DNA of 64,000 nt from Kineosporia succinea (lineage in GTDB: Bacteria > Actinomycetota > Actinomycetes > Actinomycetales > Kineosporiaceae). Under the pieces are notes generated by a model that had not been told where the DNA came from, did not search any database, and saw only the letters and a program-made list of their open reading frames with translations. A program made the position numbers and the translations under genes. The stretch is taken from the NCBI RefSeq assembly GCF_030811555.1, contig NZ_JAUSQZ010000001.1, forward strand, positions 6,631,241-6,695,240, read 5' to 3'. Each line of letters begins with the position of its first letter. The first letter of the stretch is position 1. Positions 23,788 to 63,763 of the stretch are shown here, piece after piece.

Positions 23788-25442
23788 CTTACTCTGGTAC
23801 ACGTCCTGGCATCCACAGATGCCAGGATCAACCGGTTCTCGTCCTCGTAACTGAGGTGAAGGCCGAGCTGCACGTAGAGATCGCAACGGTCTTGTGGCTC
23901 GGCCTTTTTCAGCATCTGGGACACGGTTGAGAGCTGTTCCACCGCTTTCAGCAGATCGCTCCGGGTAACCCGAGTCGACGGATCTAGATCCACCAGCGCG
24001 AGTTCCAGCCCCGCCCGCTCCGCGGTGATCTCCCGGGTCCACTCGGCGATCATCACTGGATCTGTGCCCGCCTCCAGGGCCTCGCGATAGCGACGCAGCT
24101 TTCCCTCGCACACGGTCACCTGCTCGCGGAGAGCCTGCCGACGAGCCTCCAGCGCAGGATCCTCAGCTGCGGCCAGCAGCAGATCGACCGTCTTCTGACG
24201 TCGCGACGGAGAGAACAGGTCGTCGAGCCAGGCATCCAGGTGAGGAAGGATCTTGTCTTCGCGGACGTACACCGTTCGCGGATGTCCCGTCCTCGCAAGG
24301 TCGGTGTCGGCCGCCTTCAGCTTGCACCGGTAGTGCGACCGATGGTGATTCCAGCTCCCCTCCATGATCCGCCCGCAGCGTCCGCACGACAGCACGCCAC
24401 GAAGGGCGTAATGACGCTGAGAACGACGTTCGGCTCGAGGACCGGTCATGGCCGAGTAGGTGGCTCTGTGCCGCCGTGCCTGCATCGCGATCTGGGTCTG
24501 CTTGAACAGGTCTTCATCCACGATGGCTTCGTGCATCTGCTTCGGTGAGATGATCCAGCTGTCCCGCGTATTCCAGCGCAGGCGCGTCTGGTGCCCCAGA
24601 GCGACGTCATTCACGTCGATCAGGACTTCCTCCTTGCGCTGCTTGTTCCACGCTTCGAAGCCCGTGTAGCGAGGATTCCTCAAGATGGCCTCGACGGTCG
24701 GTGCAACCCACGCTTCACCGCTGCGGTGCGCATTGCGGGAGCGATCGTGAGCCGACGGGCATGGAATCCGCTCGCGGTTGAGCTGGTTCGCGATCATGGT
24801 CATTCCCTGGCCGGACAGGTAGTCGCGAAAGATGCGGTTCACCACCGCCGCGGTCGCCGCATCGACGACCAGGCGGTGAGCCCTCAACCCGAGTGCGGCC
24901 TTACCCGGGTTGCGATGAGGCCCGGCATCTTCGAGCCGGTACCCGTACGGCGGCCGGCCTCCGAGATAGCGCCCCTCGTTGGTCGCCTGAGCGGTCATCG
25001 AGGTGCGCACGCGGATCTTGATGCGATTGCGCTCTCCTTTGGACATGCCTCCGTAGAGCGTCATGATCATCTCGTGCGCCTCGCTCCCCGGGTCTACGCG
25101 ACCACCGATCTCGGGGACCCACAGCTCCACGTCGTAGTGGACGAAAAGCGGGAAGGTGAGACCAAACTGATTGCCGTAGAACGCGCGGGCGGGCTCACCG
25201 ATCACGACCGCCTCGAATCCACGGGCGGAGTCCTGGAAGGTGTCCAGGAGCGCGGAGGCCTGCTTGCGGCGCCGCCAGGGCAATGCCCGCGTCTGGCCGA
25301 TGTCGAAGAACTCCGCGACGATCTCCCCGCCCTGCGGCTCGATCAGGCTGCGTGAGCGCGACAGTTGCCACTGCCGTGAGGAGGCTGGATCCTGCTGGTC
25401 CTCCGTGGAGACCCTGCCGTAAAACGCGAAGCGCTTGCTCAT
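23769..25442 (-). CDS. Large serine recombinase (site-specific integrase)
   Basis: A 557-residue serine recombinase. The resolvase domain opens FAFYGRVSTEDQQDPASSRQWQL, with the nucleophile Ser in GRVSTEDQ (about residue 12) and the usual Arg-containing GERNRIKIRVRTSM helix (about 155-168). The recombinase domain (about 180-310) and a zinc-ribbon (LSCGRCGRIMEG...YRCK, about 352-375) follow, then a coiled coil rich in Glu, Leu and Arg. The last six codons and the stop lie inside the tRNA-Leu gene on the opposite strand. It probably integrates and excises the island at that tRNA. Large serine integrases use tRNA genes less often than tyrosine integrases do. Confidence 0.92.
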   Translation of the reverse strand: MSKRFAFYGRVSTEDQQDPASSRQWQLSRSRSLIEPQGGEIVAEFFDIGQTRALPWRRRKQASALLDTFQDSARGFEAVVIGEPARAFYGNQFGLTFPLFVHYDVELWVPEIGGRVDPGSEAHEMIMTLYGGMSKGERNRIKIRVRTSMTAQATNEGRYLGGRPPYGYRLEDAGPHRNPGKAALGLRAHRLVVDAATAAVVNRIFRDYLSGQGMTMIANQLNRERIPCPSAHDRSRNAHRSGEAWVAPTVEAILRNPRYTGFEAWNKQRKEEVLIDVNDVALGHQTRLRWNTRDSWIISPKQMHEAIVDEDLFKQTQIAMQARRHRATYSAMTGPRAERRSQRHYALRGVLSCGRCGRIMEGSWNHHRSHYRCKLKAADTDLARTGHPRTVYVREDKILPHLDAWLDDLFSPSRRQKTVDLLLAAAEDPALEARRQALREQVTVCEGKLRRYREALEAGTDPVMIAEWTREITAERAGLELALVDLDPSTRVTRSDLLKAVEQLSTVSQMLKKAEPQDRCDLYVQLGLHLSYEDENRLILASVDARTCTRVSVRGGT

Positions 25443-34472: not shown

Positions 34473-34479
34473 GCCGCTC

Positions 34480-39787: not shown

Positions 39788-39813
39788 CCGAAACACCGAG
39801 GAGGTAGAACCCG

Positions 39814-40779: not shown

Positions 40780-40785
40780 GTCCCC

Positions 40786-47576: not shown

Positions 47577-47591
47577 TAGACTCGCGGACTG
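47577..47591 (+). promoter_or_regulatory. -10-like element giving a leaderless start for the defence operon
   Basis: TAGACT at 47577-47582 is followed by the GTG start at 47591, the distance at which transcription normally begins. No ribosome site is seen, so the helicase mRNA is probably leaderless. The -35 region is weak. Confidence 0.4.
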
Positions 47592-50494
47592 TGACGGCGA
47601 CGGACGAGGTAGGGGGTCAGACCGCGTCCGCGAGCACGGTCGCGGCGGCTCCGGGCAGCATCGTGGTGATCCGGGACGAAGAGTGGCTGGTCACCGCGGT
47701 GGAGCAGACCCCGCAAGGGCAGTTGCTCACCGTTCAGGGCCTGTCGGAGTTGGTGCGTGAGACCACGGCGACCTTCTACGAGGCGCTGGAGGACAACGTT
47801 CTCGTCCTCGATCCGGCCGACGCCCAGCTAACCGCCGATGAGTCCCCCCACTACCGACGTAGCCGCCTGTGGGTCGAGGCCACGCTCCGCAAGACTGCCG
47901 TGCCTCTCGACAACCCCGGCCTGGCCGTTGCCACGCGCATGCTGGCCCGCGCCCTGGACTACCAGCAGAGCGCGGTTCGGCAGGCTCTGGATCCGGCGAA
48001 CCTGCGTCCGCGGATCCTGCTGGCGGATGCGGTGGGACTGGGCAAGACGCTGGAGATCGGGATGATCCTTAGCGAGCTGGCGCGGCGTGGACGCGGCGAA
48101 CGGATCCTGATCGTGTCCCCCCGGCATGTTCTGGAGCAGATGCAGCAGGAGATGTGGAACCGCTTCGGGCTACCGTTCGTGCGCCTGGACTCGGTCGGCA
48201 TCCAGCGAGTGCGTCAGAAGCTGCCGGCTACCCGTAACCCGTTCACTTACTACAAGCGGGTCATCATCTCGATCGACACGCTGAAGAGTGACCGGTACCT
48301 GGCTCACCTGCGTAAACAGCGGTGGGACGCGGTGGTGATCGACGAGTCGCACAACCTCACCAACTCCAGCACCCAGAACAACCGGCTGGCTCGTGTCCTC
48401 GCGCCGAACGCCGATGCCCTGATCCTGGCCTCGGCCACACCGCACAACGGCCGCTACGAGTCGTTCGCCGAGCTGGTCCGGCTGCTGGAGCCCACCGCTG
48501 TTCGTCCTGATGGCACGTTGATTGAGGACGAGGTCAAGCGGCTGGTCATTCGGCGTCACCGGCACAGTGCGGAGGTGGCGCGCACGGTGGGAACGGACTG
48601 GGCCGAGCGCAAGGAACCGCAGAACTTCCTGGTGCCCGCCTCCCCGGCCGAGAACGCGATCGCCCGTGAGCTGGACGAGGTGTGGCTGCACCCCAAGTCG
48701 GGCACCTCGCCGTACAGCGGCGCGGCCAGCCGCTTGTTCCCGTGGACGCTGGCCAAGGCGTTCCTGTCCTCACCGGCTGCACTGACCGAGACCGTCTCCG
48801 AGCGGATCAAGCGGCTCAGCCCGGCCGCCACCGACAGCCAGCAGCGCGAGATCGACGCCCTGGAGCACCTGCGGGATCTCAGCGCTCAGCAGAGCACCGA
48901 TACCTCGGGCAAGTACGGGCGTCTGCTGGAGTACCTGAAGCAGATCAAGGTCGGCCCACGCAGCAGCGAACGGGCGGTGGTGTTCGCCGAGCGGCTGAGC
49001 ACCCTGGACTGGCTGACCGACCGATTGCGGCAGGACCTGAAGCTGGCCGATGGCCAGGTCCGCCAGCTGCACGGCGGTCTCAGCGACACCGAGCAGCAGG
49101 AGATCATCGACAGCTTCAAGCTGGAGTCCAGCCCGATCCGGGTCCTGGTGGCTGGCGACATCGCCTCCGAGGGCGTCAACCTGCATTCCTACTGTCACGA
49201 GCTGATCCACTTCGACATTCCGTGGAGCCTGATCCGGATCGAACAGCGCAACGGGCGCATCGACCGGTTCGGGCAACGGCATGCCCCGCAGATCACCACC
49301 TTGCTGCTCGATCCCGACAGCGAGACATTCGCCGGCGACCTGCGGGTGCTGCGCAGGTTGTTGGAGCGTGAGCGGGAGGCGCACACGGCACTGGGCGATG
49401 TGGCGTCGCTGATGGGTAAGTACGACGTCGGTGAAGAAGAGGACGAGATCCGGCGGGTGCTGGCGGGCCAGAAACAGTTGGACGAGGTCATGGCACCCAG
49501 CAACGACACCTCGGCCTTCGACCCGGTCGCCGCCCTCCTGGCGCAGATCAGCGGGCTCCCCCAGCCCCCCGCCCCGCAGCCGGTGAAGAAAGCAGGCTCC
49601 ACGGCGTCGCTGTACGAGGCGGACCTGGACTTCCTACGGGACGCTCTGGAAGAGGTCTACGAGACCCCGGGGGCGTCGGTGAATGCCGGTGGGGTGAACT
49701 GGCGCGAGTACCCCGGCAGCGACATCGTCGAGTTCGCACCCCCGCCAGATCTACGACGGCGCCTGGAAGTGCTGCCGCAGAGCTACCTGGCCCAGCGGCG
49801 GGTGCTGGAGTCGATAAAGCTGGCCACCTCCAGCGCCCGAGGTCAGGCGCTGCTGGCCGAGGCATTGAAGGGCGACAGCAAAATCACCTGGCCAGAGGCA
49901 CATTTCCTCGGGCCGCTGCATCCGGTGCTGGAATGGGCTTCAGACCGGGCCCTGGCCCGGCTGGGTCGTAACCAGGTCTTTGCAGTGCGCGGTGACGTCG
50001 AAGAACCGACGGTGCTGCTGATCGGCACACTGACCAACCGGCGCGGTCAGGTGGTCGCCTCCTGCTTCCTGCACGTCGCATTCCCCAACCCCGACAACCT
50101 GCGTTTCGCCCTCGTCACGGCCCAACCAGACGCCGAGACCATGATCGAGTCCGTCGGCCTGCGCAAGCCCCAGGGCAATCCTGGACCGGCAGATCTGGAA
50201 GGGCTGGAGGGACTGGTGCGAACGGCGGTTCACGCCGGGGACGAGCAGTTGGCCCAGGTCTTCGCCGCTGCAGCGGCCAACGCCCAGCAGCGGGTGACGT
50301 CATGGTCGGCCCGGGCAGGCACCTGGGACGAGGAAGCCGACGCCCTGATCCAGCGCTCAGCATTGAAGGAACGACGCATCGACATGGGCGAGGAGCACCG
50401 CCTGGCCGCTGCCATGAGCCCCGACCGGCGCCTCGTACGTCCTCTGCTCCTCGTTCTCCCGACCGACCACCCCACCACCGGAGCGACACGATGA
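47591..50494 (+). CDS. SNF2/RapA-like helicase (DrmD-like)
   Basis: A 967-residue superfamily 2 helicase, first gene of a four-gene operon. A small N-terminal beta-barrel (PGSIVVIRDEEWLVTAVEQ, residues 21-39) precedes Walker A LLADAVGLGKTLEIGMIL (about 143-160), DEAH-box VVIDESHNLTNSS (about 248-260), SAT motif ILASATPHNG and helicase motif VI LIRIEQRNGRIDRFGQ (about 550-566). A long C-terminal domain follows (to 967). The N-terminal layout and the following adenine methylase resemble DISARM DrmD. It probably translocates on or remodels DNA to recognise foreign molecules. Its stop overlaps the methylase start by ATGA. Confidence 0.88.
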   Translation: MTATDEVGGQTASASTVAAAPGSIVVIRDEEWLVTAVEQTPQGQLLTVQGLSELVRETTATFYEALEDNVLVLDPADAQLTADESPHYRRSRLWVEATLRKTAVPLDNPGLAVATRMLARALDYQQSAVRQALDPANLRPRILLADAVGLGKTLEIGMILSELARRGRGERILIVSPRHVLEQMQQEMWNRFGLPFVRLDSVGIQRVRQKLPATRNPFTYYKRVIISIDTLKSDRYLAHLRKQRWDAVVIDESHNLTNSSTQNNRLARVLAPNADALILASATPHNGRYESFAELVRLLEPTAVRPDGTLIEDEVKRLVIRRHRHSAEVARTVGTDWAERKEPQNFLVPASPAENAIARELDEVWLHPKSGTSPYSGAASRLFPWTLAKAFLSSPAALTETVSERIKRLSPAATDSQQREIDALEHLRDLSAQQSTDTSGKYGRLLEYLKQIKVGPRSSERAVVFAERLSTLDWLTDRLRQDLKLADGQVRQLHGGLSDTEQQEIIDSFKLESSPIRVLVAGDIASEGVNLHSYCHELIHFDIPWSLIRIEQRNGRIDRFGQRHAPQITTLLLDPDSETFAGDLRVLRRLLEREREAHTALGDVASLMGKYDVGEEEDEIRRVLAGQKQLDEVMAPSNDTSAFDPVAALLAQISGLPQPPAPQPVKKAGSTASLYEADLDFLRDALEEVYETPGASVNAGGVNWREYPGSDIVEFAPPPDLRRRLEVLPQSYLAQRRVLESIKLATSSARGQALLAEALKGDSKITWPEAHFLGPLHPVLEWASDRALARLGRNQVFAVRGDVEEPTVLLIGTLTNRRGQVVASCFLHVAFPNPDNLRFALVTAQPDAETMIESVGLRKPQGNPGPADLEGLEGLVRTAVHAGDEQLAQVFAAAAANAQQRVTSWSARAGTWDEEADALIQRSALKERRIDMGEEHRLAAAMSPDRRLVRPLLLVLPTDHPTTGATR

Positions 50495-53400
50495 GCACCA
50501 GCGGCGCCCTCCTGATCGGTGAGGACTGGATCAGCGAGCACTACTTCACCACCGACGCCAAGTCACAGTCGTTCCTGGCCAAAACCCTGGAACAACGCAA
50601 ACAATGGGACGACGCAGACGTCGCCACCGTGCGAACCCGATTCACTGCCGCGCGGTCCGGCCTGGAGAAACAACTCGCGGCCGTCACCCTGGAACAGGAC
50701 GACGAAAACCTGGCGGGCCTGTACGAGCAGCTACGGCAGATCCTCGGCTACGGCGAGGGCCTCACCCTGCACCGCACCGGACCAGTCCTGCTGGTGGCCA
50801 CCCCCGGCATCACCGGAGCACCCCTGGCCATCATCGAGGCCAAGGCTGTCAGCGACGTGGCGGACCTGCTGGACAAGGAAGCCAAGAGCCTCCTGACCTC
50901 CTACGACGTGGACGACAAAGAGCAGATCCACTCCGTCGCCCGCCTACTGTCCGCTCTGTTCAACAGCACCGACGCCCCAACCTTCGCCCTGGTCATGGCC
51001 GGGCCCTGGCTGATGATCACCGACGCCGAGCGCTGGCCCGAAGGCCGCTACCTGGCGGTGAATCTGCAATTGGTCTGCGAGCGCAATCACGACCGCCGCG
51101 GCGGCGAGATCGATCGCGCTCTTGCCTGCCTGAGCGCCGACTCCCTCGCCCCCGACGCGGACGGCGAGATCTGGTGGACGGGCGTGCTGGCCGATTCGGT
51201 CAAGCACACCGTCGGCGTCTCGCAGGACCTGCGCGAAGGTGTTCGCCTGTCCATCGAGATCATCGCCAACGAGGTCGTCCGCCGCCGCGCCGCCCAAGGA
51301 CTGGAGCCCCTGCCGAAGGACCAGGCCCAGGTCCTGGCCGTGCAGTCCCTGCGCTTCCTCTACCGGATCCTGTTCCTGCTGTGGGCCGAGGCCTCACCCG
51401 AGCTCGGCGTCCTGCCCGTCGGCGCCGCCGAGTACGAGCAGGGCTACGGCGTCGACCGCCTGCGCGAACTGGTCCTGGTCGACCTGGCCACCCCGCACGC
51501 TCAGCAGGGCACCCACCTCTACAGCTCCCTCGGTGTCCTTTTCCGCCTCGTCGATCAAGGCTCCGCCAGTCGCACCCAGCCCATGGACGACGAACCCGGA
51601 TCCTCCGATGGCCTGACCTTCCGCAGCCTGCGCGCCGACCTCTTCAGCCCGAAAGCTACCGCCCACATCGACCAGGTCGGCCTGGGCAACAACGCCGTCC
51701 AGGACGTCCTTCGTCACCTGCTCCTGAGCAAGGAAACCCGCGGACGCGACAGAGGATTCATCTCCTACGCCCAACTGGGCATCAATCAGCTCGGCGCCGT
51801 CTACGAAGGCCTGATGTCCTACACCGGCTTCTTCGCCGAGGAAGACCTCTTCGAGGTCGCCAAGAATGGCGATGCCGGCAAGGGCTCCTGGGTAGTCCCC
51901 GTCGCCCGTGCCGACGGCATATCCCAGAACGATTTCGTCAGGATGACTGACCCGGTCACCGGGGAGTCCACGCCAGTACGCCACAACCGCGGCACCTTCG
52001 TGTATCGGCTGGCCGGCCGCGACCGCCAGCAGTCGGCTTCCTACTACACACCCGAAGTCCTTACCCGATTCACCGTCGGCCAAGCCCTCGCCGAACTGCT
52101 CGACCAGAACGGCGAAACCACCCCGGCCTGCGACATTCTTAACCTCACCGTCTGCGAACCAGCCCTCGGGTCAGGTGCGTTCGCCATCGAAGCCGTCAGC
52201 CAACTCGCCGACGAGTACCTCAAACGCCGCCAGAACGAACTAGGCACCCGCATCGACCCTGACGAGTACCCGCGCCGTTTGCAGGAAGTCAAGGCCTATC
52301 TGGCGCTGCACCAGGTCTACGGCGTCGACCTCAACGCCACTGCCGTCGAACTCGCCGAGATCTCTCTCTGGCTCGGCACAATGACCCCCGCCCTCGACGC
52401 CCCTTGGTTCGGCCTGCACCTACGCCGCGGCAACTCTCTCATCGGCGTCCGACGCGCTGTCTTCCACCGCTCTCAGATCACCGACAAGTCCTGCCTGAAA
52501 GACGTTCCCGGAGACGTACCACTCGCCGACCTTGACGCCGGAATCAACGGACGTGTGCACCACTTCCTGCTCCCCGCCGAGGGCTGGGGAGCAGCCATCG
52601 ACGCTAAGGAAGCCAAACCCCTCGCCCCCGAAGCCCTCCAGCGCCTACGCGAATGGCGCCGCAGCATCCTGTCCAAGCCAACCAAGGTCCAGACCAACGC
52701 CCTCATCGACCTCGCCGAACGCGTCGAGAGCCTCTGGGGCATCACCCTGAGCCGCCTGCAGATCGCCGAAGCCGAGATCCGCCGCTCGATCCCGGTCTGG
52801 GGCGCCGACAACCTGGCCGTCGGCGGACACATCCAGCGCGAAGAGATCGAACGGACGCTCGCCGAACCCAAGGGCGCCTACCAACGCCTCCGTCGAATCA
52901 TGGACGCCTGGTGCGCCCTCTGGTTCTGGCCCCTCACCGACACCCTCACCACCGCTGAAGACGGCACACGCATCCACCCGCCCACCCTCGCCGAGTGGAT
53001 CGAGGCCGGACAGATGCTGCTCGGCCGGCACGCCGGCAAGAAGAAGACCGCCACCGGGCAGGACCGACTCGACACGGGCAATACCTGGGCCGAACTTGGC
53101 ACCACAGAAGACCTCGACCTCGGCCTGGCCAGTGCCGCCACCATCGAGGCAACGCTCGCCAAACACTCGTGGTTGAAGGTCTGCGAACAGATCGCCTCCC
53201 AACAAGGCTTCTTCCACTGGGAACTGGACTTCGCACCCGTCTTCGCTCGCGGCGGATTCGACCTGCAACTGGGTAACCCGCCCTGGGTGCGACCGCGATC
53301 TGATGTCGATGCGCTGCTTGCCGAAGGTGACCCCTGGTGGCAGCTGGAGAATAAGCCAAGTGAAGAAGCGCGCAAGGAACGCAGACCAGGCACCCTCGCC

Positions 53401-55152
53401 CTCAACGGCATCCAGAACCTCGTCATCGATGGAACCGCCGACGTTGCAGCCACCGCAGCCTTCGTGGGCTCGGTGCAGCACTTCCCGCATCTGGCCGGGC
53501 TTCAGCCTGACCTCTACCGGTGCTTCATGGAGCAGACCTGGCGACATGTATCAGCCCGCGGAGCCATCGTCCTGATCAGCCTGGAATCACACTTCACCGA
53601 CGAAAAGGCAGGAGGTCTACGTGCCGCCACGTATGAACGCCTGCGCCGCCACTGGCACTTCGTCAACGAACTTCGACTGTTCGACATCGAGGATCACAAG
53701 CATTACGGCATCGCGGTCTACGGGCCACCATCTGAGGTGCGCTTCACCCAAGCCTCCTGGCTCTACCACCCGGACACAGCCGTTCGTTCTTTCGCCCATG
53801 ACGGCAGCGGCCCCGAGCCAGGTCTGAAGGATCCTGACGGCAACTGGGACCTCCGTCCGCACCGCAACCGCCTCGTCATCGTCACCCCCGAGGTGCTGAA
53901 GACCTGGCACGAGGTCCTCGAAGTACCAGAAGTGCCGGTGCTCCGCTCCCGCATGGTGTACGCGGTGAACCGAGCAACCTCCGACGTGCTAGGGAAACTG
54001 TCTGAGGCGGAACGCGTCGGAGCGCTTGGGCTTCAGTTCTCGTCAGGTTGGCACGAGAAGAACGATCGTACCAAGGGCTACTTCGTCTCCGAGTGGGGCA
54101 GGCCTCTGTCATGGGATGACGTAATCCTCCAAGGACCGCACCTCTTTGTGTCCACGCCCATGTACAAGTCCCCCAACGAGACCATGCTCCACAATCAGGA
54201 CTGGTCAGCTACCGACTTTGAGGCCCTCGCCTCGGACGCGATCCCGGTGACCTCGTACAAGCCCGCCGGAGACCGCGCCGCGTACGACGCCCGCTACACC
54301 CACTGGACCCTCCCAGACGGCGACACCACCCCCGCCCGCGACCACTACCGCGTTGCCTGGCGGTACATGGCGCCAAACACGGGCGAGAGAACATTGGCCC
54401 CCTGTCTGCTACCTCCTGGTCCCGCGCACATCCACGGGGTGGCCACCGCTGGTAACGGAAGCATCGAATTGGCCACGCTTGCAACAACTCAAGGCGTGCT
54501 CTCCTCCCTTCTTGCTGACTTCTCGATCAGGACCGCACCTAAAGCAACCATCTCCGCGCCAAGCATTAACAGGCTTAGTTTGCCAGCCGACATACCTCCG
54601 AATTTGGCTGATTGGATTACCCACCGTTCACTCCGTCTCAATTGCGTCACCGAGGCTTTTGGCGAGATGTGGGAGGCGAGTGCGAACTCGACGTTCTCAG
54701 CGGACGCTTGGACGGCGCCAGCTAGTTACGGCTTGACCGCCGATCTGGCTGACGTTCCCACAACTTGGACACCTAACGTTCCTCTCCGCATCGCCGCCGA
54801 CCGTCGTCAAGCCCAGCTCGAGATCGACGCCCTCGTAGCTCTGATGCTCGGTGTCACGGCAGATGAGCTCTGCACCATCTATCGCACCCAGTTCCCAGTT
54901 CTGTACGGTTACGACCGCAATCGCGACCACTACGACGCCAACGGGCGCCTGGTGCCGAACAGCGTTTTGGCACTCTGGCGGAAGAAGGGCGATGCGATCA
55001 GTCTCGATGGGTGCACGGCGACGAATCAGGCGGGTAACACGTACGTGTATGAGTTGCCGTTCGTGACACTGGATCGGGAGCATGACATGCGGGTGGCGTA
55101 TGTGGAGTTCGAACGACGGTTGGCGGAGCCGGGGGCGGGCGCGGGGGCGTGA
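50491..55152 (+). CDS. Eco57I-type N6-adenine DNA methylase (DrmMI/PglX-like)
   Basis: A 1553-residue protein with the adenine-methylase motifs: motif I EPALGSGAFAIEAVSQL (about residues 556-572, SAM binding) and motif IV LQLGNPPWVRPR (about 926-937, NPPW). These are separated by some 370 residues, a large insertion. Residues 1-500 form a nuclease-like or scaffold region (LLVATPGITGAPLAIIEAKAVSDVADLL, about 108-135, with a possible D/E-x-K core), and the C-terminal 450 residues are a target-recognition-like domain. It likely marks host DNA to protect it from the rest of the system. The ATG at 50491 overlaps the helicase stop. Size and context fit class 1 DISARM DrmMI or BREX PglX, more so the first. 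Confidence 0.88.
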   Translation: MSTSGALLIGEDWISEHYFTTDAKSQSFLAKTLEQRKQWDDADVATVRTRFTAARSGLEKQLAAVTLEQDDENLAGLYEQLRQILGYGEGLTLHRTGPVLLVATPGITGAPLAIIEAKAVSDVADLLDKEAKSLLTSYDVDDKEQIHSVARLLSALFNSTDAPTFALVMAGPWLMITDAERWPEGRYLAVNLQLVCERNHDRRGGEIDRALACLSADSLAPDADGEIWWTGVLADSVKHTVGVSQDLREGVRLSIEIIANEVVRRRAAQGLEPLPKDQAQVLAVQSLRFLYRILFLLWAEASPELGVLPVGAAEYEQGYGVDRLRELVLVDLATPHAQQGTHLYSSLGVLFRLVDQGSASRTQPMDDEPGSSDGLTFRSLRADLFSPKATAHIDQVGLGNNAVQDVLRHLLLSKETRGRDRGFISYAQLGINQLGAVYEGLMSYTGFFAEEDLFEVAKNGDAGKGSWVVPVARADGISQNDFVRMTDPVTGESTPVRHNRGTFVYRLAGRDRQQSASYYTPEVLTRFTVGQALAELLDQNGETTPACDILNLTVCEPALGSGAFAIEAVSQLADEYLKRRQNELGTRIDPDEYPRRLQEVKAYLALHQVYGVDLNATAVELAEISLWLGTMTPALDAPWFGLHLRRGNSLIGVRRAVFHRSQITDKSCLKDVPGDVPLADLDAGINGRVHHFLLPAEGWGAAIDAKEAKPLAPEALQRLREWRRSILSKPTKVQTNALIDLAERVESLWGITLSRLQIAEAEIRRSIPVWGADNLAVGGHIQREEIERTLAEPKGAYQRLRRIMDAWCALWFWPLTDTLTTAEDGTRIHPPTLAEWIEAGQMLLGRHAGKKKTATGQDRLDTGNTWAELGTTEDLDLGLASAATIEATLAKHSWLKVCEQIASQQGFFHWELDFAPVFARGGFDLQLGNPPWVRPRSDVDALLAEGDPWWQLENKPSEEARKERRPGTLALNGIQNLVIDGTADVAATAAFVGSVQHFPHLAGLQPDLYRCFMEQTWRHVSARGAIVLISLESHFTDEKAGGLRAATYERLRRHWHFVNELRLFDIEDHKHYGIAVYGPPSEVRFTQASWLYHPDTAVRSFAHDGSGPEPGLKDPDGNWDLRPHRNRLVIVTPEVLKTWHEVLEVPEVPVLRSRMVYAVNRATSDVLGKLSEAERVGALGLQFSSGWHEKNDRTKGYFVSEWGRPLSWDDVILQGPHLFVSTPMYKSPNETMLHNQDWSATDFEALASDAIPVTSYKPAGDRAAYDARYTHWTLPDGDTTPARDHYRVAWRYMAPNTGERTLAPCLLPPGPAHIHGVATAGNGSIELATLATTQGVLSSLLADFSIRTAPKATISAPSINRLSLPADIPPNLADWITHRSLRLNCVTEAFGEMWEASANSTFSADAWTAPASYGLTADLADVPTTWTPNVPLRIAADRRQAQLEIDALVALMLGVTADELCTIYRTQFPVLYGYDRNRDHYDANGRLVPNSVLALWRKKGDAISLDGCTATNQAGNTYVYELPFVTLDREHDMRVAYVEFERRLAEPGAGAGA

Positions 55153-58100
55153 GTGAACTTCTTCCTTCTCTTCAGGCGGATGACGTTCAGCGGGGGTTGC
55201 TGGACTACCTGACCACGACGTTTGCGCTGGCTGATCAGGATGCGCGGCTGGCGTTGTCAGAATTCCTGACCGACTCGACGGACGGCATTTTCAAGGGTCC
55301 GTACGTGCGGTTGCGGCTGCCGTTCCGGCCGGCCGCGGATGGGTGGCAGTCGAGTTTGGGATGGTCGGGCGGGTTCACGCCGTACGGGCATCAGGCACAG
55401 GCGTGGGCTCGGCTGAGTTCGGCTGATCTGAGCGAGCAGAAACCTCGTCCGTTGCCGACCTTGGTGACGACGGGGACCGGTTCGGGTAAGACGGAGGCGT
55501 TCCTCTACCCGATTCTGGATCACGTGCTGCGGGAGCGGCGAGCTGGGCGCCGGGGCGTGAAGTCGCTGATCCTGTATCCGATGAATGCGCTGGCTAACGA
55601 CCAGGCGGGGCGGTTGGCGCGGATCATCACTGCGCATGAGGAGCTGGCTGGTGTGACGGCTGCCCTGTACACGGGGCAGGGTGGCACGCAGCGCACAATG
55701 GTGACGGCGGAAGGGCTGATCACAGATCGGGCGGTGATCCGGAGTGAGCCACCGGACATTCTGCTGACGAACTACAAGATGCTCGACCAGTTGCTGCTGC
55801 GCGCTGACGATCAGTCGTTGTGGCGGGAAAGTGCGCTCAGTCTGCGGTATCTGGTGCTGGATGAGTTCCATACCTATGACGGCGCGCAGGGCACTGATGT
55901 GGCCATGTTGCTGCGCCGGCTGGGTTTGGCGTTGAAGGCGTACTGGCCTCAGGACTCGTCCGAGGTCACTCAGGAGGACTGGGCGCGTCCGCTGGGGCGT
56001 ATGACCCCCGTCGCGACCTCCGCCACTTTGGGAGACCGCGGTGATCCGGCCGCGATGGTGACGTTCGCGCACACCGTGTTCGGTGAGGAGTTCCGCCTGG
56101 AGGGCGTGGTCACCGAGTCTCGGCTGACCCGCGAGGAGTGGCTCGGTACGGCCGCTGCCGAGGTGGTCCAATGGGGACTAGAAGCGCCCGACACCGCAGA
56201 TCTGGAGCCGCAGGCCGTGGCCGCTCTTGGGGGTGTTGATGCGGCGGCGTCACGGGAGCTGGCCCTGCAGGTGCTGGCGGTTCTGTACCAGGTGCAGCCG
56301 GCCAAGATCGTCGATGTGTTGGCCGGGGACGATACGCGGTTGCTGACGCTGGCCAAGGCGGTTCCGCTAGTGCAGAGCCTGATTGGCGAGGCGGCGGACG
56401 CAGTGTCGGTAGACGAACTGGCCGGGCGATTGACGCCGTCGGCGTTGATGCCGGTGAGCGGCCCGGCGCTGCTGGCGGTGATCGCCATGCTGAGCCACGT
56501 GAGGGCGGTGTCGGGGCGTTCGGCGCCGACGGTTGAGACGCACTTGTGGGTGCGGGAGCTGACCCGGGTCGATCGGTTCGCGTCGGCGAGCGTGCGGTAC
56601 CGGTGGAGTGACGACGGCCCTTTGGCGGGCGGTGGCGTGGGGGACGCGTTCGCGGAGGACGAGCGTCCTGCGTTCCCGGCGGTGTACTGCCGGCATTGCG
56701 GACGTTCGGGCTGGGGTATCGAACTGGGCCCCACCGGCTTGAGTTTGGGCACGGACGACACGGTCATCCGCCGGAATCACGCGGCGCGGGAGGGTCGGTT
56801 CCGGGCGTTGTTGTCGGCGCCGTTGGAAGCCGAGCACACCGGTGACGTTCCGGGCGAGAAGGTCGAAGGGCTGCACTGGTTCGCGGTCCGCCGCCGGGAG
56901 ATCGTGGCATCGGCGCCGCAGTCCGATGACCGGGATTTCCGCGATGGCTGGGTGCTGCCCGTCCTGATGCTGACTGGCCCGGACGTGGAGGACGAGTCCC
57001 GGGACGACACCTGCCCGTCCTGTCTGCAGAAGGACGGGATCCGCTTCCTGGGTAGCGCTATCGCCACTCTGCTGTCGGTGACGTTGTCGACGATGTTCGG
57101 TTCGGCGGATCTGGATCAGGAGGAGAAAAAGGCGCTGGTCTTCACCGACAGCGTTCAGGATGCCGCTCATCGGGCTGGGTTCGTGCAGAGCCGTTCTCAT
57201 ACGCTGACCTTGCGGTCGGTGCTGCGAGCTGCCGCTGAAGACGGTCCGGTGGGGCTGGACGTGCTGGTGGACGAGGCGATCCGGCGGGCTGGGCATGATC
57301 GTTTTGCTCGGTACCGGCTGCTGCCGCCGGAATTGGCGTCCCGTCCGTACTTCCGGTCGTTCTGGCAGGCCGAGAAGCCGAGCGCGCAGTCGCGGACGCG
57401 GGTACGACGCCGGTTGCTGTTCGATGCGGTGATGGAGTTCGGCCTCGCCTCGCGAATCGGCCGCACACTGGAGCAGACCGGCAGCGTGGTCGCTGCCGTA
57501 GAAGGGTTGCCGGCATCGCGGTTGGCGACCATCGCTCGCTCGGTGCTGAAGGACGCGGACGGCCAGCAGAGCCTGGATGAGGCTATGGGCATCGTCACCG
57601 AGCAGTGGCTGGTGGCGTGGGTCCGTGGAACTCTCGAGCATCTGCGTGAGCGCGGCGCCGTGACGCATCCATGGTTCGATCTGTACCAGCGCGAAGACGG
57701 CAGCAGGTACCGGATCTGGTACGGCCGCAAGCGCGAGGAGGGTATGCCCGCGTTTCCTCCGGGGCGTGCTGCTCCGGCGTTTGCTCGGGTTGGCCCGGCG
57801 TTGGCTGTGAAGGATCCTTTGCTGGATCCGGTGACCTCGGCGCAGAGTTGGTATGCCCGGTGGACCGCGCGCACTCTGGTTGTCTCGCCGCAGCACGGTG
57901 CACGTCTGGCCCGGGGGTTGTTCGATCGGCTGGCCCGGGCGGATCTGCTGGTTGCCAGCACGACGCAGACCAAGGGCATCAGCTACGCGATCCCGGCCAG
58001 CGCGATCCTGGTGCAGCCGACCACGGAGCAGGAACTGGCCAATGGGCAGTGCCTGCTGGAGTGCTCGGTCTGCCGCACGACCTACCCCTCCACCCCGGAG

Positions 58101-61100
58101 GTCACCGATCAGCTCGACGGCGCGCCGTGCATGCTGGTGCGATGCCCCGGCGCCTTGCATCGAGTGGCCCGGCCGGACAACTACTACCGGCGCCTGTATG
58201 CCTCAGCCAGCCCGCGGCGGATCGTGGCGCGAGAGCACTCCAGCCTGCTGGAGGACGAGGTCCGGCTGGAATACGAGACGGCATTCAAGACCGGCCGCGA
58301 CGATCCGGAAGCTCCCAATGTGCTGGTGGCGACGCCCACACTTGAGATGGGTATCGACATCGGTGACCTGTCCACGGTCATGCTGGCCTCGCTCCCCCGC
58401 ACCGTGGCGTCCTACTTGCAACGCGTCGGCCGGGCCGGCCGCCTGACGGGCAACGCCCTGAACCTGGCCTTCGTCACCGGTCGCGGCGAGAACCTGCCCC
58501 GCCTCGGCGAGCCGCTATCCGTAATCAACGGGCAGGTACGCCCACCGGCCACCTACCTGAACGCCGAGGAGATCCTGCAGCGCCAGTACGTCGCCCACTT
58601 GGTCGATACTCTCGCGCGGGATTCGAAAGGCCCCCGGCCACAACGGGCAGCAGCTGCTCTGGGCAAGGCCGATGACGGCAGCTTCCTGGACTGCCTGGTC
58701 GTCGAGGCCGAAGCCGACGCCACCACTCACCTCGACCGTTTCCTGGACACCTTTCACGGCCAGTCTGAATCCACTGTCCAGGCGCTGCGGCATTGGGCCA
58801 GCCCTGCTGACGGCGCGGGAACCAGCGGACTGGCGCGTCACCTGTTCGAGGCATCTCATCGTTGGACCAAGACCCAGGATGAGCTGGGACATCGTCAGGC
58901 AACCGTGCAGGCGGCCCTGCCTGGCCTGGACGCAGCGGCCCAACTACCAGCCGCAACCGAGGACGACAAGAGGGCGGCCAACTCCGCGCGTGCCGCGCTG
59001 AAGCTGACCCGGGCCCAGATCGCTGGTCGGCGTAGCCAGCCGTGGATCCAGTCGCTGGAAGAGGCCGGGATCCTGCCCAACTACACCCTCGTGGACGACG
59101 ATGTGAGCCTGGACGTGGCGCTCACCTGGATCGATCACGACACCGGCGAGTTCCACAGCGAACCCGTCAGCTACCGGCGCTCCCGAGCGAATGCGCTGCG
59201 AGAATTCGCACCCGGTGCGGTGTTCTATGCCCGGGGTCTAGAGGTGCAGATTGACTCCATCGATCTGGGAGTGGACGGTACCGCCATCCGGTCCTGGGGC
59301 TTCTGCCCGGCCTGCGGTTATGCCCGTGACCGCGAACCAGGTGGCGCTCCCGTGCAGGCGAGCCCCTGCCCGCGGTGCGGAAGCTCAGGAATCCTCGATT
59401 CGGCCCAGCATTTCGACACGGTCGAGCTGAGCCGGGTGACGGCGGAGATGCGCCGGGACGAAGCGACGATCACCGACCGGCGTGACGAGCGCCAGCGTGA
59501 GCGTTTCACCATCGTCGTGGCCGCTGACGTCAACCCGGCCAGCGTGATCCGGCAGTGGTACGTCGACGGGTACGACTTCGGTGTGAAGTACCTACGCAGC
59601 ATCGACATCCGCTGGGTCAACCTCGGTCGCGGCGCCGGGTACGGCCCGCAACGCGAGATCGCCGGCGAGACACGGATGGCGAACCTGTTCCGGGTCTGCG
59701 AGGGCTGCGGCAAACTCGATCGGGCCACCCAGCGCAACCGTCCCGAGGAGCATCGTCCCTGGTGCCGTTACCGGTCCTCGGCGCAGGAACACACCCGCAG
59801 CCTGGCGCTGACCCGCAGCCTCACCACGCAGGGCATCGTCCTGCGGCTTCCGCCGTCGGTGACCATCGGCGACAGCTTCGCCGTCCCCAGCCTGGCCACC
59901 AGCGTCCTGCTGGGTCTGCATGAGCAGCTCGGCGGTTCGCCTGACCACATCGCCATCGCCTCCATCGCCGACCCGACCCTGGAGTCCGATGGCGGAGGCC
60001 GTACCGATCCGGCGTTGCTGCTGCACGATGTCGTGCCTGGCGGTACCGGGTACCTGGCCGAACTGGCTGACCCGGAACGGTTGTGGGACCTGCTGCACAG
60101 GGCCTGGGTGATCGTGCGTGACTGCCCATGTCGTGATGAGGCGCGGCTGGCCTGTCACCGGTGCCTGCTGCCCTACACCGGAGCCCACCTACCCGCGGAG
60201 CTGGTCTCCCGGCAGGCCGCCGAACGGCACCTTCGGGCCATTCTCACCTCCGGCGCCGTCTCCGGCAGCCGCGAGGTCCCTGATGCCCTGGACTGGCTGC
60301 TCACTGACGTTCCCGCGCAGGCTGCGAGCACCGAATCGCATCTGGAGCAATACTTCCGGATGGTCATCGGCCGACGGATGCGTGCCCTAGGCGCCACGGT
60401 CAAGGACGTACCGGGACCGACCGGCAACAGCATGCATGTCTCCTTCCCGCACAGCCCGTGGCAGTGGAAACTGCAGCCGCAAGTCAAGCTGCCCGGCGTC
60501 GTCCCCGATTTCGTCCTTCAGTGCAACGACCCGGGAGTGCCGCCGGTGGCAGTGTTCACCGACGGCTGGCTCTACCACGCCTCACCGTCGCACAACCGGC
60601 TGGCCGACGACGCCCGTAAACGCGCCGATCTGCGCGACCAGGGGTATGTGGTGCTGGGAGTGACCGCGCGCGACGTCGACCAGGCCGACAATCCCTCGAC
60701 GCCATCATGGTTCGATGCCGGTGTGGTGTCGGCGCTGATGCAGTCGGGCAGCTACCAATTCGGGCACCGGGCGTCCGAGGCCATCGCCGAGGGGCCCATC
60801 TCCTGGCTGCTGAGCTGGCTGCAGTTCACCGAAACCGCGCAACTGCGGTCCTTGGCCGAGGCCGTTCCGTTCTTCTTCGCCCGTACCCCCTCCCAGCCCG
60901 GAGGCGTTCTGTTCGACAGCGCGGTGCGGGCCCTCGACGAGAACGACGATGCGAACGTACAGCAGTGGTGGTGGGCCAGTGGCGCCTGCGGCGTCCTGGC
61001 CCGCACATCGGCAGCGACGCCAGGGTCGGTCGCGGTCGCACTGGTGCTCGACGATCGGGACCAGGCGCTCCACGAAGACGATCACCGGCAGTCCTGGGCA

Positions 61101-61502
61101 CAGTGGTTGAGCATCGCCAACGCTCTCGCCCAGCGCGAGCAGCCCACCCAGATCACCACCGTCACCGAAATCCTGGCCGGTCACACCACCCGGCCCGCCG
61201 CCGGCGCAGCCGGCCCCGAGGCCGGCGTTCTGGAGCCTGAGTGGCAGGAACTGGTGGACGATGCTGTGGACGACGAGCGGACGTTCCTGCTCGCTCTGCT
61301 GGAACCGGGTGCAGCGGGTCTTCCCCTTCCCACCCTGGGATTCGAGACCGCAGCCGGAATCCCCATCGACATCGCCTGGCCGGATCACAAGATTGCGGTC
61401 TCCGTCTCCCCGGAAGACATTCGGGAGGACCTGGAGGCCGACGGCTGGCACGTGTTCGACCCGGACGCGCAAGCGGTTCGCGCCGTGATCGAAGCCATCT
61501 GA
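55149..61502 (+). CDS. Giant helicase-DUF1998-nuclease protein (DrmA/DrmB-like fusion)
   Basis: A 2117-residue protein. It starts with a DEAD-type helicase: Walker A VTTGTGSGKTEAFLYPIL (about 104-121), Walker B VLDEFHTYDGAQGTD (about 236-250), late motifs ATPTLEMGIDIGDLSTVML and YLQRVGRAGRLTGN (about 1059-1100). Cys pairs resembling zinc ribbons lie near residues 512, 621, 972, 1388 and 1517. The DUF1998 block is LLHDVVPGGTGYLAEL...CPCRDEARLACHRCLLPY (about 1620-1675). A PD-(D/E)xK-like nuclease segment follows: VVPDFVL and VAVFTDGWLYHASPSHNRLADDARKRADLRDQGYVVLGVTARD (about 1783-1840). It combines DrmA helicase and DrmB DUF1998 functions, plus a nuclease, in one chain. It begins with a GTG overlapping the methylase stop. 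Confidence 0.85.
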   Translation: MSELLPSLQADDVQRGLLDYLTTTFALADQDARLALSEFLTDSTDGIFKGPYVRLRLPFRPAADGWQSSLGWSGGFTPYGHQAQAWARLSSADLSEQKPRPLPTLVTTGTGSGKTEAFLYPILDHVLRERRAGRRGVKSLILYPMNALANDQAGRLARIITAHEELAGVTAALYTGQGGTQRTMVTAEGLITDRAVIRSEPPDILLTNYKMLDQLLLRADDQSLWRESALSLRYLVLDEFHTYDGAQGTDVAMLLRRLGLALKAYWPQDSSEVTQEDWARPLGRMTPVATSATLGDRGDPAAMVTFAHTVFGEEFRLEGVVTESRLTREEWLGTAAAEVVQWGLEAPDTADLEPQAVAALGGVDAAASRELALQVLAVLYQVQPAKIVDVLAGDDTRLLTLAKAVPLVQSLIGEAADAVSVDELAGRLTPSALMPVSGPALLAVIAMLSHVRAVSGRSAPTVETHLWVRELTRVDRFASASVRYRWSDDGPLAGGGVGDAFAEDERPAFPAVYCRHCGRSGWGIELGPTGLSLGTDDTVIRRNHAAREGRFRALLSAPLEAEHTGDVPGEKVEGLHWFAVRRREIVASAPQSDDRDFRDGWVLPVLMLTGPDVEDESRDDTCPSCLQKDGIRFLGSAIATLLSVTLSTMFGSADLDQEEKKALVFTDSVQDAAHRAGFVQSRSHTLTLRSVLRAAAEDGPVGLDVLVDEAIRRAGHDRFARYRLLPPELASRPYFRSFWQAEKPSAQSRTRVRRRLLFDAVMEFGLASRIGRTLEQTGSVVAAVEGLPASRLATIARSVLKDADGQQSLDEAMGIVTEQWLVAWVRGTLEHLRERGAVTHPWFDLYQREDGSRYRIWYGRKREEGMPAFPPGRAAPAFARVGPALAVKDPLLDPVTSAQSWYARWTARTLVVSPQHGARLARGLFDRLARADLLVASTTQTKGISYAIPASAILVQPTTEQELANGQCLLECSVCRTTYPSTPEVTDQLDGAPCMLVRCPGALHRVARPDNYYRRLYASASPRRIVAREHSSLLEDEVRLEYETAFKTGRDDPEAPNVLVATPTLEMGIDIGDLSTVMLASLPRTVASYLQRVGRAGRLTGNALNLAFVTGRGENLPRLGEPLSVINGQVRPPATYLNAEEILQRQYVAHLVDTLARDSKGPRPQRAAAALGKADDGSFLDCLVVEAEADATTHLDRFLDTFHGQSESTVQALRHWASPADGAGTSGLARHLFEASHRWTKTQDELGHRQATVQAALPGLDAAAQLPAATEDDKRAANSARAALKLTRAQIAGRRSQPWIQSLEEAGILPNYTLVDDDVSLDVALTWIDHDTGEFHSEPVSYRRSRANALREFAPGAVFYARGLEVQIDSIDLGVDGTAIRSWGFCPACGYARDREPGGAPVQASPCPRCGSSGILDSAQHFDTVELSRVTAEMRRDEATITDRRDERQRERFTIVVAADVNPASVIRQWYVDGYDFGVKYLRSIDIRWVNLGRGAGYGPQREIAGETRMANLFRVCEGCGKLDRATQRNRPEEHRPWCRYRSSAQEHTRSLALTRSLTTQGIVLRLPPSVTIGDSFAVPSLATSVLLGLHEQLGGSPDHIAIASIADPTLESDGGGRTDPALLLHDVVPGGTGYLAELADPERLWDLLHRAWVIVRDCPCRDEARLACHRCLLPYTGAHLPAELVSRQAAERHLRAILTSGAVSGSREVPDALDWLLTDVPAQAASTESHLEQYFRMVIGRRMRALGATVKDVPGPTGNSMHVSFPHSPWQWKLQPQVKLPGVVPDFVLQCNDPGVPPVAVFTDGWLYHASPSHNRLADDARKRADLRDQGYVVLGVTARDVDQADNPSTPSWFDAGVVSALMQSGSYQFGHRASEAIAEGPISWLLSWLQFTETAQLRSLAEAVPFFFARTPSQPGGVLFDSAVRALDENDDANVQQWWWASGACGVLARTSAATPGSVAVALVLDDRDQALHEDDHRQSWAQWLSIANALAQREQPTQITTVTEILAGHTTRPAAGAAGPEAGVLEPEWQELVDDAVDDERTFLLALLEPGAAGLPLPTLGFETAAGIPIDIAWPDHKIAVSVSPEDIREDLEADGWHVFDPDAQAVRAVIEAI

Positions 61503-61516
61503 GCACGGAGGAAAAG

Positions 61517-63763
61517 ATGCCGATCATCGTCATGACCAAGCAGGGCTCCAAGCTGGACGCCTCGATCAAGAAGAAGGCCTACTCTTTCCTGGAAAAACTG
61601 GCCGAGGACGACACCACCCTGGGCCTGCACATCGAGCCCATCCAGAACAGCGCCGACCCCAAGGTCCGCACCGGCCGGGTCGACCAGGCCTACCGAGCCG
61701 TCCTGTTCAGGCTGCCCGGCGAGCAGGAGACCACGTACGTCTTCTACGGCATCTGGATGCACGACGATGCCATCGCGATCGCCAAAAAGGTCGTCCTGGA
61801 ACTCAACCCGGTTAACGGCATCACCGAGATCCGCACCGTCGAGCCCGCCGAGATCTCTAAGGTCACGCCCGTGGTCACCGCACGGGTCCCCGACCAGCGG
61901 ACCATCACGCAGCAGCCGGCGCTCCTAGCGGCCCACGGCGTTACGCTGCCCGACCTGCTCGATCTGGGTATCGACCAGAACCTGGCCGAGAACGCCCTGC
62001 AGGTCACCGACGAGGACGGTCTGGAGGCCCTACTCAGCGATGCGGTCGAGTGGCAGGGCATGGCCCTGATCGAACTGGGCGCCGGAACCAGCGTCACCGA
62101 CGTCCGTGACCATTTCAGCCTGACCAAGCATGCCGTCCCGGCGACGTCGACCTCTCCGGTCAGCGCCAGCGCGGCCATCGTGGCGGGCATGAGCCACCCC
62201 GCCGCGCAGATGACCTTCGCCTACGCCGCGAACAACGACGAACTGCGCCGGATCATCGAGGGAGGCGACTTCGGGGCCTGGCGGGTCTGGCTGCACCCCG
62301 AACAGCGCCGCTACGTCGACAAGACCTGGAACGGCCCGTTCCGGCTCTCCGGCGGCGCTGGCACCGGCAAGACCGTCGTCGTCCTGCACCGCGCCGCAGA
62401 GCTGGCCCGACGCCACCCCCACGCCCGGATCATCCTCACCACCTTCACCACCAACCTGGCCACCGCCCTGTCCACCCAGCTCAACCACCTCGACCCCACC
62501 CTGCCCCGAACCCAGAACCTCGCCGAGCCCGGCATCCACATCACCGGCATCGATGCCCTGGCCTCAGCGGTACTGCGGAACGCCGCTCGCGCAGGCCAAG
62601 ACCTCAGTGAGGACATCATCGCGGTCCTGGGCTCTGAGGCCGCAGGGTCGGCCGTCACCGGAAGTAACGCACCTACCCGCATCGGTGGCGTGTCCTGGCG
62701 GGACGCTCTGGACGTGGCCGGCTCAGCGCTGCCACCGGAACTGCAGTCCGAGTCGTTCATGGCCGCCGAGTACGGATCGGTGATCCTGCCCAACCTGATC
62801 ACCACCCGCGAGCAGTACTACCGGGCCCGCCGCCCCGGCCGAGGTGTCGCCCTGGACCGAGGCCGCCGCAAGGCCGTCTGGGAGGTCGTCCAGGCTCGCC
62901 GCGCCCAAGCCCGCATCGACGGCGTCCACGACTTCGCCGAAACTTCCGCCATTGCCGCCGCCCACCTACGCCGCACCGCCGACACCGGCCTGCCCGCCGA
63001 CCACGTCCTCGTCGACGAAGGACAAGACCTCTCAGCCACCCACTGGCAACTACTACGAGCCCTGGTCGCCGAACACCCCGACGACCTCTTCATCGCCGAG
63101 GACTCCCACCAGCGCATCTACGGCCGCCGCATCGTCCTCAGCCAATTCGGGATCCGTATCGTCGGACGATCCCAACGCCTCACCCTGAACTACCGCACCA
63201 CGGCGGAGAACCTAGCCTTCGCCCTGCGGGTGCTCTCCGGTGGCAGCTACACCGATCTCGAAGAAACCGCGGAAGACTCCACCGCCTACCGCTCAGCCCG
63301 CCGTGGCAAGTCGCCCGCGATTGGGGGCCGAGACTCCTTACGTTCCGAACTCGACCACACCGCAACTCTGCTCCAGACATGGAGCGACGCCACGGACGCG
63401 CCCGAAACGCTCGCTGTCTTGGTCCGGGACCGATTCCAGCGCGACCGTGTGGTCAATGGCCTAGCCGAACGCGGGCTCGCCGTTCGGGCGGTGGACCGGG
63501 AAGAGATCAAACCTGGCCAGCCAGTTGTGATGACCATGCACCGGGCCAAAGGCACCGAGTTCTCCAAGGTCCTCCTATTCGGCATCAACGAAGGCTCCAT
63601 CCCAGCCGGGCTGAAGGATGAGAAATACTCCGACGACGCCTGGAACGACGCGCTGCTACGAGAGCGATCTCTGCTCTACGTCGCCGCAACCCGTGCACGC
63701 GACGAACTAGCCGTCACCTGGAGCGGAGACGCAAGCTCTCTACTGTCAGCTGCAACCGAGTAG
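61517..63763 (+). CDS. UvrD-type helicase with RelE/ParE-like N-terminal domain
   Basis: A 748-residue superfamily 1 helicase. Residues 1-110 resemble a RelE/ParE toxin-type fold (LDASIKKKAYSFLEKLAEDD ... VRTGRVDQAYRAVLFRL ... YVFYGIWMHDDAIAIAKKV). After a linker, Walker A is RLSGGAGTGKTVVVLHRAAELARR (about 275-298), Walker B HVLVDEGQDLSATHWQLLRAL (about 496-516), LTLNYRTTAENLAFAL is motif IV-like, and VVMTMHRAKGTEFSKVLLFG and SLLYVAATRARDELAVTWSG (about 720-739) close the helicase core. It follows the giant protein by 14 bp with ribosome site GGAGGAAAA, the only gap in the operon without overlap. Its role may be strand unwinding or translocation in the same defence complex. Confidence 0.88.
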   Translation: MPIIVMTKQGSKLDASIKKKAYSFLEKLAEDDTTLGLHIEPIQNSADPKVRTGRVDQAYRAVLFRLPGEQETTYVFYGIWMHDDAIAIAKKVVLELNPVNGITEIRTVEPAEISKVTPVVTARVPDQRTITQQPALLAAHGVTLPDLLDLGIDQNLAENALQVTDEDGLEALLSDAVEWQGMALIELGAGTSVTDVRDHFSLTKHAVPATSTSPVSASAAIVAGMSHPAAQMTFAYAANNDELRRIIEGGDFGAWRVWLHPEQRRYVDKTWNGPFRLSGGAGTGKTVVVLHRAAELARRHPHARIILTTFTTNLATALSTQLNHLDPTLPRTQNLAEPGIHITGIDALASAVLRNAARAGQDLSEDIIAVLGSEAAGSAVTGSNAPTRIGGVSWRDALDVAGSALPPELQSESFMAAEYGSVILPNLITTREQYYRARRPGRGVALDRGRRKAVWEVVQARRAQARIDGVHDFAETSAIAAAHLRRTADTGLPADHVLVDEGQDLSATHWQLLRALVAEHPDDLFIAEDSHQRIYGRRIVLSQFGIRIVGRSQRLTLNYRTTAENLAFALRVLSGGSYTDLEETAEDSTAYRSARRGKSPAIGGRDSLRSELDHTATLLQTWSDATDAPETLAVLVRDRFQRDRVVNGLAERGLAVRAVDREEIKPGQPVVMTMHRAKGTEFSKVLLFGINEGSIPAGLKDEKYSDDAWNDALLRERSLLYVAATRARDELAVTWSGDASSLLSAATE

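Follow-up and report, generated by a model that had tools for sequence, protein, structure and literature searches.

A probable ARMADA Type II anti-phage operon of Kineosporia succinea and its candidate carrier element at a tRNA-Leu gene

The DNA analyzed here, referred to as the window, is a stretch of 64,000 nucleotides from the genome of Kineosporia succinea. It contains an operon of four genes, armA to armD, whose frames run in the same direction, have no internal stops, and show coding-type codon usage (Table 1). The armA/armB and armB/armC junctions are 4-base overlaps, in each of which the start codon lies over the preceding stop, and armD starts 14 nucleotides past the armC stop, with GGAGG just ahead of it. 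A sequence-only reading of the window had proposed four overlapping or near-overlapping genes at 47591-63763, and its frames, coordinates, and length for the large helicase (2117 residues) are all right. Its main domain calls also agree with Pfam, which returns SNF2/Helicase_C, Eco57I, DEAD/Helicase_C/MZB, and UvrD for the proteins that it had named as a SNF2 helicase, an Eco57I methylase, a DUF1998-bearing helicase, and a UvrD helicase, respectively.

Table 1. Features of the operon and of the presumed left end of its carrier element, in window positions.
Feature	Position	Strand	Basis
armA, RapA/BrxHII-like SNF2 helicase, 967 aa	47591..50494	+	GTG start; Pfam SNF2-rel_dom, Helicase_C
ArmA SNF2-related ATPase domain, residues 124-302	47960..48496	+	Pfam PF00176
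armB, PglX-like DNA methyltransferase, presumably N6-adenine, 1553 aa	50491..55152	+	ATG start; Pfam Eco57I methylase
ArmB SAM-binding motif EPALGSG, residues 556-562	52156..52176	+	row alignment, E. coli comparison
ArmB catalytic motif NPPW, residues 929-932	53275..53286	+	row alignment, E. coli comparison
armC, YprA-family helicase with DUF1998/MZB and putative C-terminal nuclease, 2117 aa	55149..61502	+	GTG start; Pfam DEAD/Helicase_C/MZB
ArmC MrfA zinc-binding domain (part of DUF1998 module), residues 1585-1673	59901..60167	+	Pfam PF09369
ArmC putative Vsr-type PD-(D/E)xK nuclease domain, about residues 1730-1845	60336..60683	+	conserved residues, sub-threshold matches of relatives
ArmC C-terminal segment, perhaps an inactivated second Vsr-like domain, about residues 2058-2117	61320..61499	+	conserved in relatives; name after PMC12458937
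armD, GajB-like UvrD helicase with N-terminal RelE-type domain, 748 aa	61517..63763	+	ATG start; Pfam UvrD
ArmD RelE-superfamily domain, residues 1-107	61517..61837	+	AlphaFold2 model, Foldseek, conserved arginines
tRNA-Leu (GAG), presumed attachment site of element	23703..23788	+	ARAGORN
Large serine recombinase, presumed integrase, 557 aa	23769..25442	-	Pfam Recombinase, Resolvase, Zn_ribbon_recom
Left attachment core (attL), 17 bp, from tRNA 3' end	23773..23789	.	repeat 60,383 bases downstream, outside window

The four-gene locus is, with high probability, an ARMADA Type II anti-phage system, an architecture described in 2025 (Bell et al., bioRxiv preprint, September 2025, PMC12458937). The name ARMADA denotes a YprA-like helicase together with two more genes that are common with class 1 DISARM. 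In Type II, the order is ArmA, a BrxHII/RapA-like helicase, ArmB, a PglX-like methylase, ArmC, and ArmD; ArmC is a YprA-family helicase with a fused DUF1998 module and a predicted C-terminal Vsr-type nuclease, which inactivated EEP and Vsr domains often follow, and ArmD is a GajB-like UvrD helicase with a RelE-like domain at its N terminus (PMC12458937). In the window operon, the order of BrxHII-like helicase, PglX-like methylase, and YprA helicase is the same, DEAD, Helicase_C, and MZB lie within one 2117-residue frame, fusing the DUF1998 module to the YprA-family core, and a GajB-like UvrD helicase with an N-terminal RelE-like domain comes after armC. The ARMADA system, its architecture, and its occurrence in Actinomycetota are already published, and the locus is a further copy; a named system with the same architecture, which by the terms of the sequence-only reading would refute its proposal, has been found.

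The window proteins are 37.0% (ArmA), 35.2% (ArmB), 33.0% (ArmC), and 35.9% (ArmD) identical over aligned residues to those of Escherichia coli KCTC 2571, which we take to be the same strain as ATCC 8739. The KCTC 2571 locus lies near tRNA-Phe and groEL and comprises Zorya II genes, presumed DruH and DruE genes, and the ARMADA set of four; its content agrees with the surroundings described for ATCC 8739 ARMADA (PMC12458937). The KCTC 2571 proteins also carry the same letters at the same numbers as the residues mutated in that study, and all eight of these are conserved in the window: ArmA K152 and D251 correspond to the tested K136 and D236, ArmB G560 and N929 to G605 and N971, ArmC K114 and D238 to K110 and D234, and ArmD K285 and D500 to K266 and D454. 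The eight retained residues, the four open frames with coding-type codon usage, and the overlapping or close junctions argue against a decayed or silent copy that is a passive passenger of its element, a reading to which the transposase genes also present in the stretch would lend some color and which is very unlikely.

An ArmC tree places the window protein inside a 54-row clade that includes E. coli ArmC, with E. coli DruE and locus L034, which has Type I gene order, outside; the tree was made by a quick method, and these two outer rows sit on long branches, so that their placement is weak. It comprises 56 rows, two loci (L065 and L110) having been omitted beforehand and 37 of the remaining 93 rows omitted thereafter, and was built without reference Type I or DISARM rows. 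The nearest partner of window ArmC is L076 (62% identical), within a starred 18-row clade.

Viewed through its first two proteins, the operon is reminiscent of class 1 DISARM. The best PADLOC match of ArmA is DrmD (325 bits), which NCBIfam also matches (351 bits, under its cut-off of 610), and ArmB matches DrmMI models with 186 bits. Both matches would suit a class 1 DISARM variant with a DrmA-DrmB fusion, loss of DrmC, and an added UvrD gene. ArmC, however, scores far better against Druantia DruE, its best PADLOC model (276 bits), than against DrmA (72 bits), and the ArmC clade lies apart from DrmA in the YprA-family tree of PMC12458937. The four operon proteins and the neighbors scanned include neither a separate DrmB nor a DrmC phospholipase D protein; the sequence-only reading had already pointed out the missing DrmC. 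In addition, all but one of the 80 best-scoring loci have ArmD after ArmC, and the compact order A-B-C-D is seen in 35 of 62 (see below). A DISARM variant is, on these grounds, highly improbable. What stands of the DISARM-like operon proposed from sequence is a DISARM-related defense operon that is not DISARM itself, with the DrmA and DrmB parts in one frame and an ArmC that matches DruE better than DrmA.

ArmB raises a second alternative. Both G560 and the NPPW motif are present in 51 of 51 aligned rows, and the PADLOC model PDLC03611 (REase_MTase_IIG) covers the protein end to end with 1459 bits, a label under which the operon would count as Type IIG restriction-modification accompanied by helicases. 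By pattern, the ArmB N terminus contains one ExK-like motif, E116-x-K118, in which the Glu occurs in 20 of the 51 rows and Lys falls outside the six most frequent residues at position 118. ArmB is thought unlikely to be a Type IIG enzyme because this motif is not conserved, and PDLC03611 was perhaps built on ArmB-family proteins and mislabelled; we give the Type IIG alternative scarcely any credence relative to ARMADA Type II. A likely annotation error is at stake, as PADLOC-DB 2.0.0 would label ArmB a Type IIG restriction enzyme, and ARMADA methylases may be mislabelled.

The C-terminal segment of ArmC is a probable Vsr-type nuclease, as judged from residue conservation. In an alignment from which four of 72 non-redundant rows (L048, L066, L077, and L104) were left out, E1733, D1787, G1806, H1810, and R1825 are each present in 69 of 69 rows, D1821 in 68, D1805 in 67, and D1842 in 65. 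We take this pattern to be similar to that of the Vsr active site. Sub-threshold matches (E up to 0.1) to REase_MTES_1575 occur in 17 of the 69 ArmC relatives and to Vsr in one; of ten relatives scanned singly, one (L075) matches REase_MTES_1575, scoring 22.7 bits where the cut-off is 38.2, over a span that includes the conserved Asp and His. Pfam gives no nuclease match for the window segment and no PLD-type nuclease among the ArmC matches, and a Foldseek search with the whole 428-residue C-terminal model returns no match at an E value of 0.001 or better, perhaps because the model contains several domains. A match of the C-terminal profile to designed repeat proteins was taken for chance of composition. 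The PD-(D/E)xK-like segment of the sequence-only reading is thus borne out by conserved residues and by sub-threshold matches of relatives, and not by Pfam or fold matches of the window protein.

The N-terminal domain of ArmD is modeled with high confidence by AlphaFold2 (pLDDT 92.9) from an alignment of 63 rows, which are the window and 62 non-redundant rows out of 85. The model supports a RelE/YoeB/YafQ fold, and its best PDB matches in Foldseek are Agrobacterium YoeB/ParE (E value of 1.5e-4), YafQ, YoeB, and RelE. R54 and R60 are each present in 62 of the 63 rows, and position 82 is His in 49; with His82 restricted to these rows, the RNase activity of the RelE-type domain may vary among relatives. 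A ParE_like match (E up to 0.1) is seen in 14 of the 63 rows. The window N terminus itself has no RelE/ParE match in Pfam and no RelE match by NCBIfam or PDB sequences; the RelE/ParE-like domain named in the sequence-only reading is supported by the model and the fold match. Single-sequence Pfam and NCBIfam searches likewise give no match for the Vsr domain of window ArmC. Both domains are missed by searches of this kind, and alignments and fold prediction are therefore needed. The best PADLOC model for ArmD is NERD+UvrD (99 bits), with GajB at 77 bits.

At least 582 ArmC relatives were confirmed in the genome collection, and the gene-order counts rest on the best 80 of these, 75 of them from Actinomycetota by record title, and so lean to close relatives. 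Downstream of ArmC, in the same orientation, 79 of the 80 loci carry an ArmD that matches the RelE profile. One of these matches is by construction, as the L029 ArmD was one of the ten sequences that make up this profile and L029 and L076 are the same 16,391-base contig. The distance is within 300 nucleotides in 78 loci and 2.8 kb in L098; in L065, a 4.6 kb contig, ArmD was not found. armA and armB were counted in the 62 loci that have 9 kb or more of upstream DNA, and the other 18 of the 80 were not used. The compact order A-B-C-D, the four-gene order to be sought in other genomes according to the sequence-only reading, is present in 35 of the 62 and not in 27: armB lies 0.7-9.7 kb from armC in 20 and is not found in the upstream DNA examined in 7. 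Frames were taken from stop to stop, so that a broken armB can mimic a gap, and in L064 and L070 there are only short frames there. The gene order is looser than the "strict gene order" of PMC12458937 suggests.

Ten frames between armB and armC were sampled from eight loci (L083, L091, L098, L101, L107, L109, L114, and L118). Seven have Pfam matches, which are GmrSD_N, OLD/AbiEii-like AAA ATPases (two), SLFN_AlbA_2, a caspase plus AAA_11/AAA_12 helicase, Beta_protein, and an HTH-DUF5753 regulator, and three have none. Some of the genes lodged at this junction run in the opposite direction. The armB-armC junction may be a slot into which other defense genes dock.

In L034, a locus of the window's own genus (genome G001), the order is C-A-B-D, that is, the Type I order C-A-B plus an ArmD-like RelE-UvrD gene. 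The RelE-UvrD ArmD is tied to Type II in PMC12458937.

Beyond the genome collection, at least 80% of a plasmid-borne ARMADA copy is present in 513 of 5,426 complete E. coli genomes. ArmC is matched at 1e-30 by 30 of 72,556 plasmid records, seven of these over at least 80% of its length. The phage records contain one partial ArmC relative in 50,697, and IMG/VR contigs contain 8 relatives.

The operon probably arrived on a 60 kb element that the large serine recombinase listed in Table 1 would have placed at the tRNA-Leu(GAG) 3' end. The 163 kb examined contain one further copy of the 17-bp core, and the inverted-repeat arms GAACGTGTACCAGAG and CTCTGGTACACGTCC flank the core, as expected of attP. 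In a comparison genome, G003, which has no match to the element's recombinase, the identical tRNA is directly followed by a hairpin stretch, and a similar stretch is found beyond the right end in the window genome. This arrangement suggests that the element parted tRNA-Leu(GAG) from its terminator. The likeness of the two stretches is short, about 50 nucleotides, with a flank-only score of 38; the four other loci compared score 23-27, and L134, which is one of these four, was read on the wrong strand. Within the same genus, relatives of the recombinase adjoin the corresponding tRNA in G004 (68% identical, full length), G002 (partial), and G001 (partial), and G005 has the tRNA with no recombinase relative beside it. 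Recombinase fragments also come after a second tRNA-Leu-like stretch of the window genome, at 5481007. In 2 kb steps, the G+C content is 0.59-0.70 inside the element and 0.68-0.72 beyond its right end, a slight contrast. The element has presumably moved.

Three probe recombinases have no match at 1e-6 in 86 other loci, and carriage on such elements is therefore not generalized. ARMADA elements have been described with prophage-like integrases, and the main text of PMC12458937 makes no mention of serine recombinases. Neither the serine-recombinase element nor the genes at the armB-armC junction were found in the ARMADA literature examined, the supplements of which may hold them. These are small additions, with hints as to the ways in which such systems spread and acquire extra parts. 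A joint reading would make Actinomycetota ARMADA II a platform carried on serine-recombinase elements, with tRNA-Leu(GAG) as a genus-level hotspot and a junction holding interchangeable extra effectors, namely the GmrSD/DUF262, OLD-like ATPase, Schlafen/AlbA, and caspase plus AAA_11/AAA_12 helicase genes. The reversed direction of some lodged genes and the probe recombinases without a match speak against such a platform, which we regard as conceivable and rather doubtful.

Several other gene groups were noted in the window and beyond it. Upstream of armA, at 36878-46849 on the plus strand, are genes for a WD40 protein, a MoxR ATPase, a DUF58 protein, a TgpA-type transglutaminase, and a PKD/beta-helix protein. 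On the minus strand at 29157-35712 are a TIR-domain protein, an AAA_5 ATPase with a weak bpMoxR match, and frames of 290 and 1242 residues with no Pfam match; the genes of this second group are possibly a MoxR-type conflict system. Outside the window, within the putative element (L035 7144-17235, minus strand), is a gene for a 3363-residue RHS-repeat protein with a pretoxin HINT domain. It lies between two frame pairs of the same lengths (331 and 122 residues) in opposite directions, and one of these frames, when scanned, is an rve-type transposase.

PglX is needed for attack in BREX. ArmB would similarly recognize and methylate a DNA site and would be needed both for attack and for any self-marking, the latter being moderately probable. 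E. coli ARMADA protects against phage in a non-abortive manner that leaves infected cells intact and requires all four genes, ArmB G605A and ArmD D454N cause only partial loss of protection, and cells with the cluster minus armB could be assayed (PMC12458937). Plain restriction-modification would hardly allow such armB-less cells, which suggests that ArmB is needed for attack. ArmA and ArmC would be ATP-driven translocases acting on phage DNA as it enters the cell or replicates, with ArmC loading onto single-stranded or branched DNA like its YprA-family relative DruE, which loads onto 3' single-stranded DNA (PMC13192584). The Vsr-type domain of ArmC would nick or cut DNA, and ArmD would unwind the products, with a RelE-type domain that may cut RNA; DNA cutting by ArmC is somewhat favored, and RNA cutting by ArmD is a tentative proposal of lower probability. 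Druantia III stops phage DNA circularization in Mycolicibacterium and is abortive there, unlike ARMADA (PMC13316683), and a review groups ARMADA with systems that take unmodified DNA for foreign, the means of restriction being unknown (PMC12904381). For the window copy, we infer phage-defense activity and the presence of a modified site; methylation may have a role, such as the self/non-self discrimination with which the sequence-only reading found the methylase and the fused nuclease consistent.

Structural parallels to several other systems can be drawn. Hma follows a helicase plus methylase logic with a gene set different from that of the ARMADA operon; its HmaA model matches ArmA with 172 bits, a weaker match than that of DrmD. 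The GajB helicase of Gabija is a UvrD-type helicase related to ArmD, but the window operon lacks GajA, and ArmD has a RelE-type domain. Druantia III (DruE/DruH) shares a YprA-family helicase with a C-terminal nuclease, which is putative in ArmC. It differs from the window operon, which has Vsr-like residues rather than a phospholipase D-type nuclease, as well as a methylase and two more helicases; DruH has no match in the PADLOC rows shown for the operon and scanned neighbors, and the ten neighboring proteins scanned have no PADLOC match to Zorya or Druantia. Class 1 DISARM has in common a RapA-like helicase, a PglX-like methylase, a YprA-family helicase, and a DUF1998 module, whereas in the window a single protein combines helicase, DUF1998 module, and a fused C-terminal segment, and there is an extra RelE-UvrD gene.

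The closest likeness is to ARMADA Type II of E. coli (NCTC 12900 and ATCC 8739), with which the window operon shares the A-B-C-D order, the domains, the eight tested residues, and an element at a tRNA gene. The main differences are that the window copy is only 33-37% identical to the E. coli copy, that its host is an actinobacterium, and that a serine recombinase lies at the window tRNA whereas a tyrosine recombinase is found at the KCTC 2571 locus. The window operon is a full counterpart, at about one third identity and with catalytic residues conserved, of a system apparently tested only in E. coli, which makes it useful as a second case in which to test the ARMADA mechanism.
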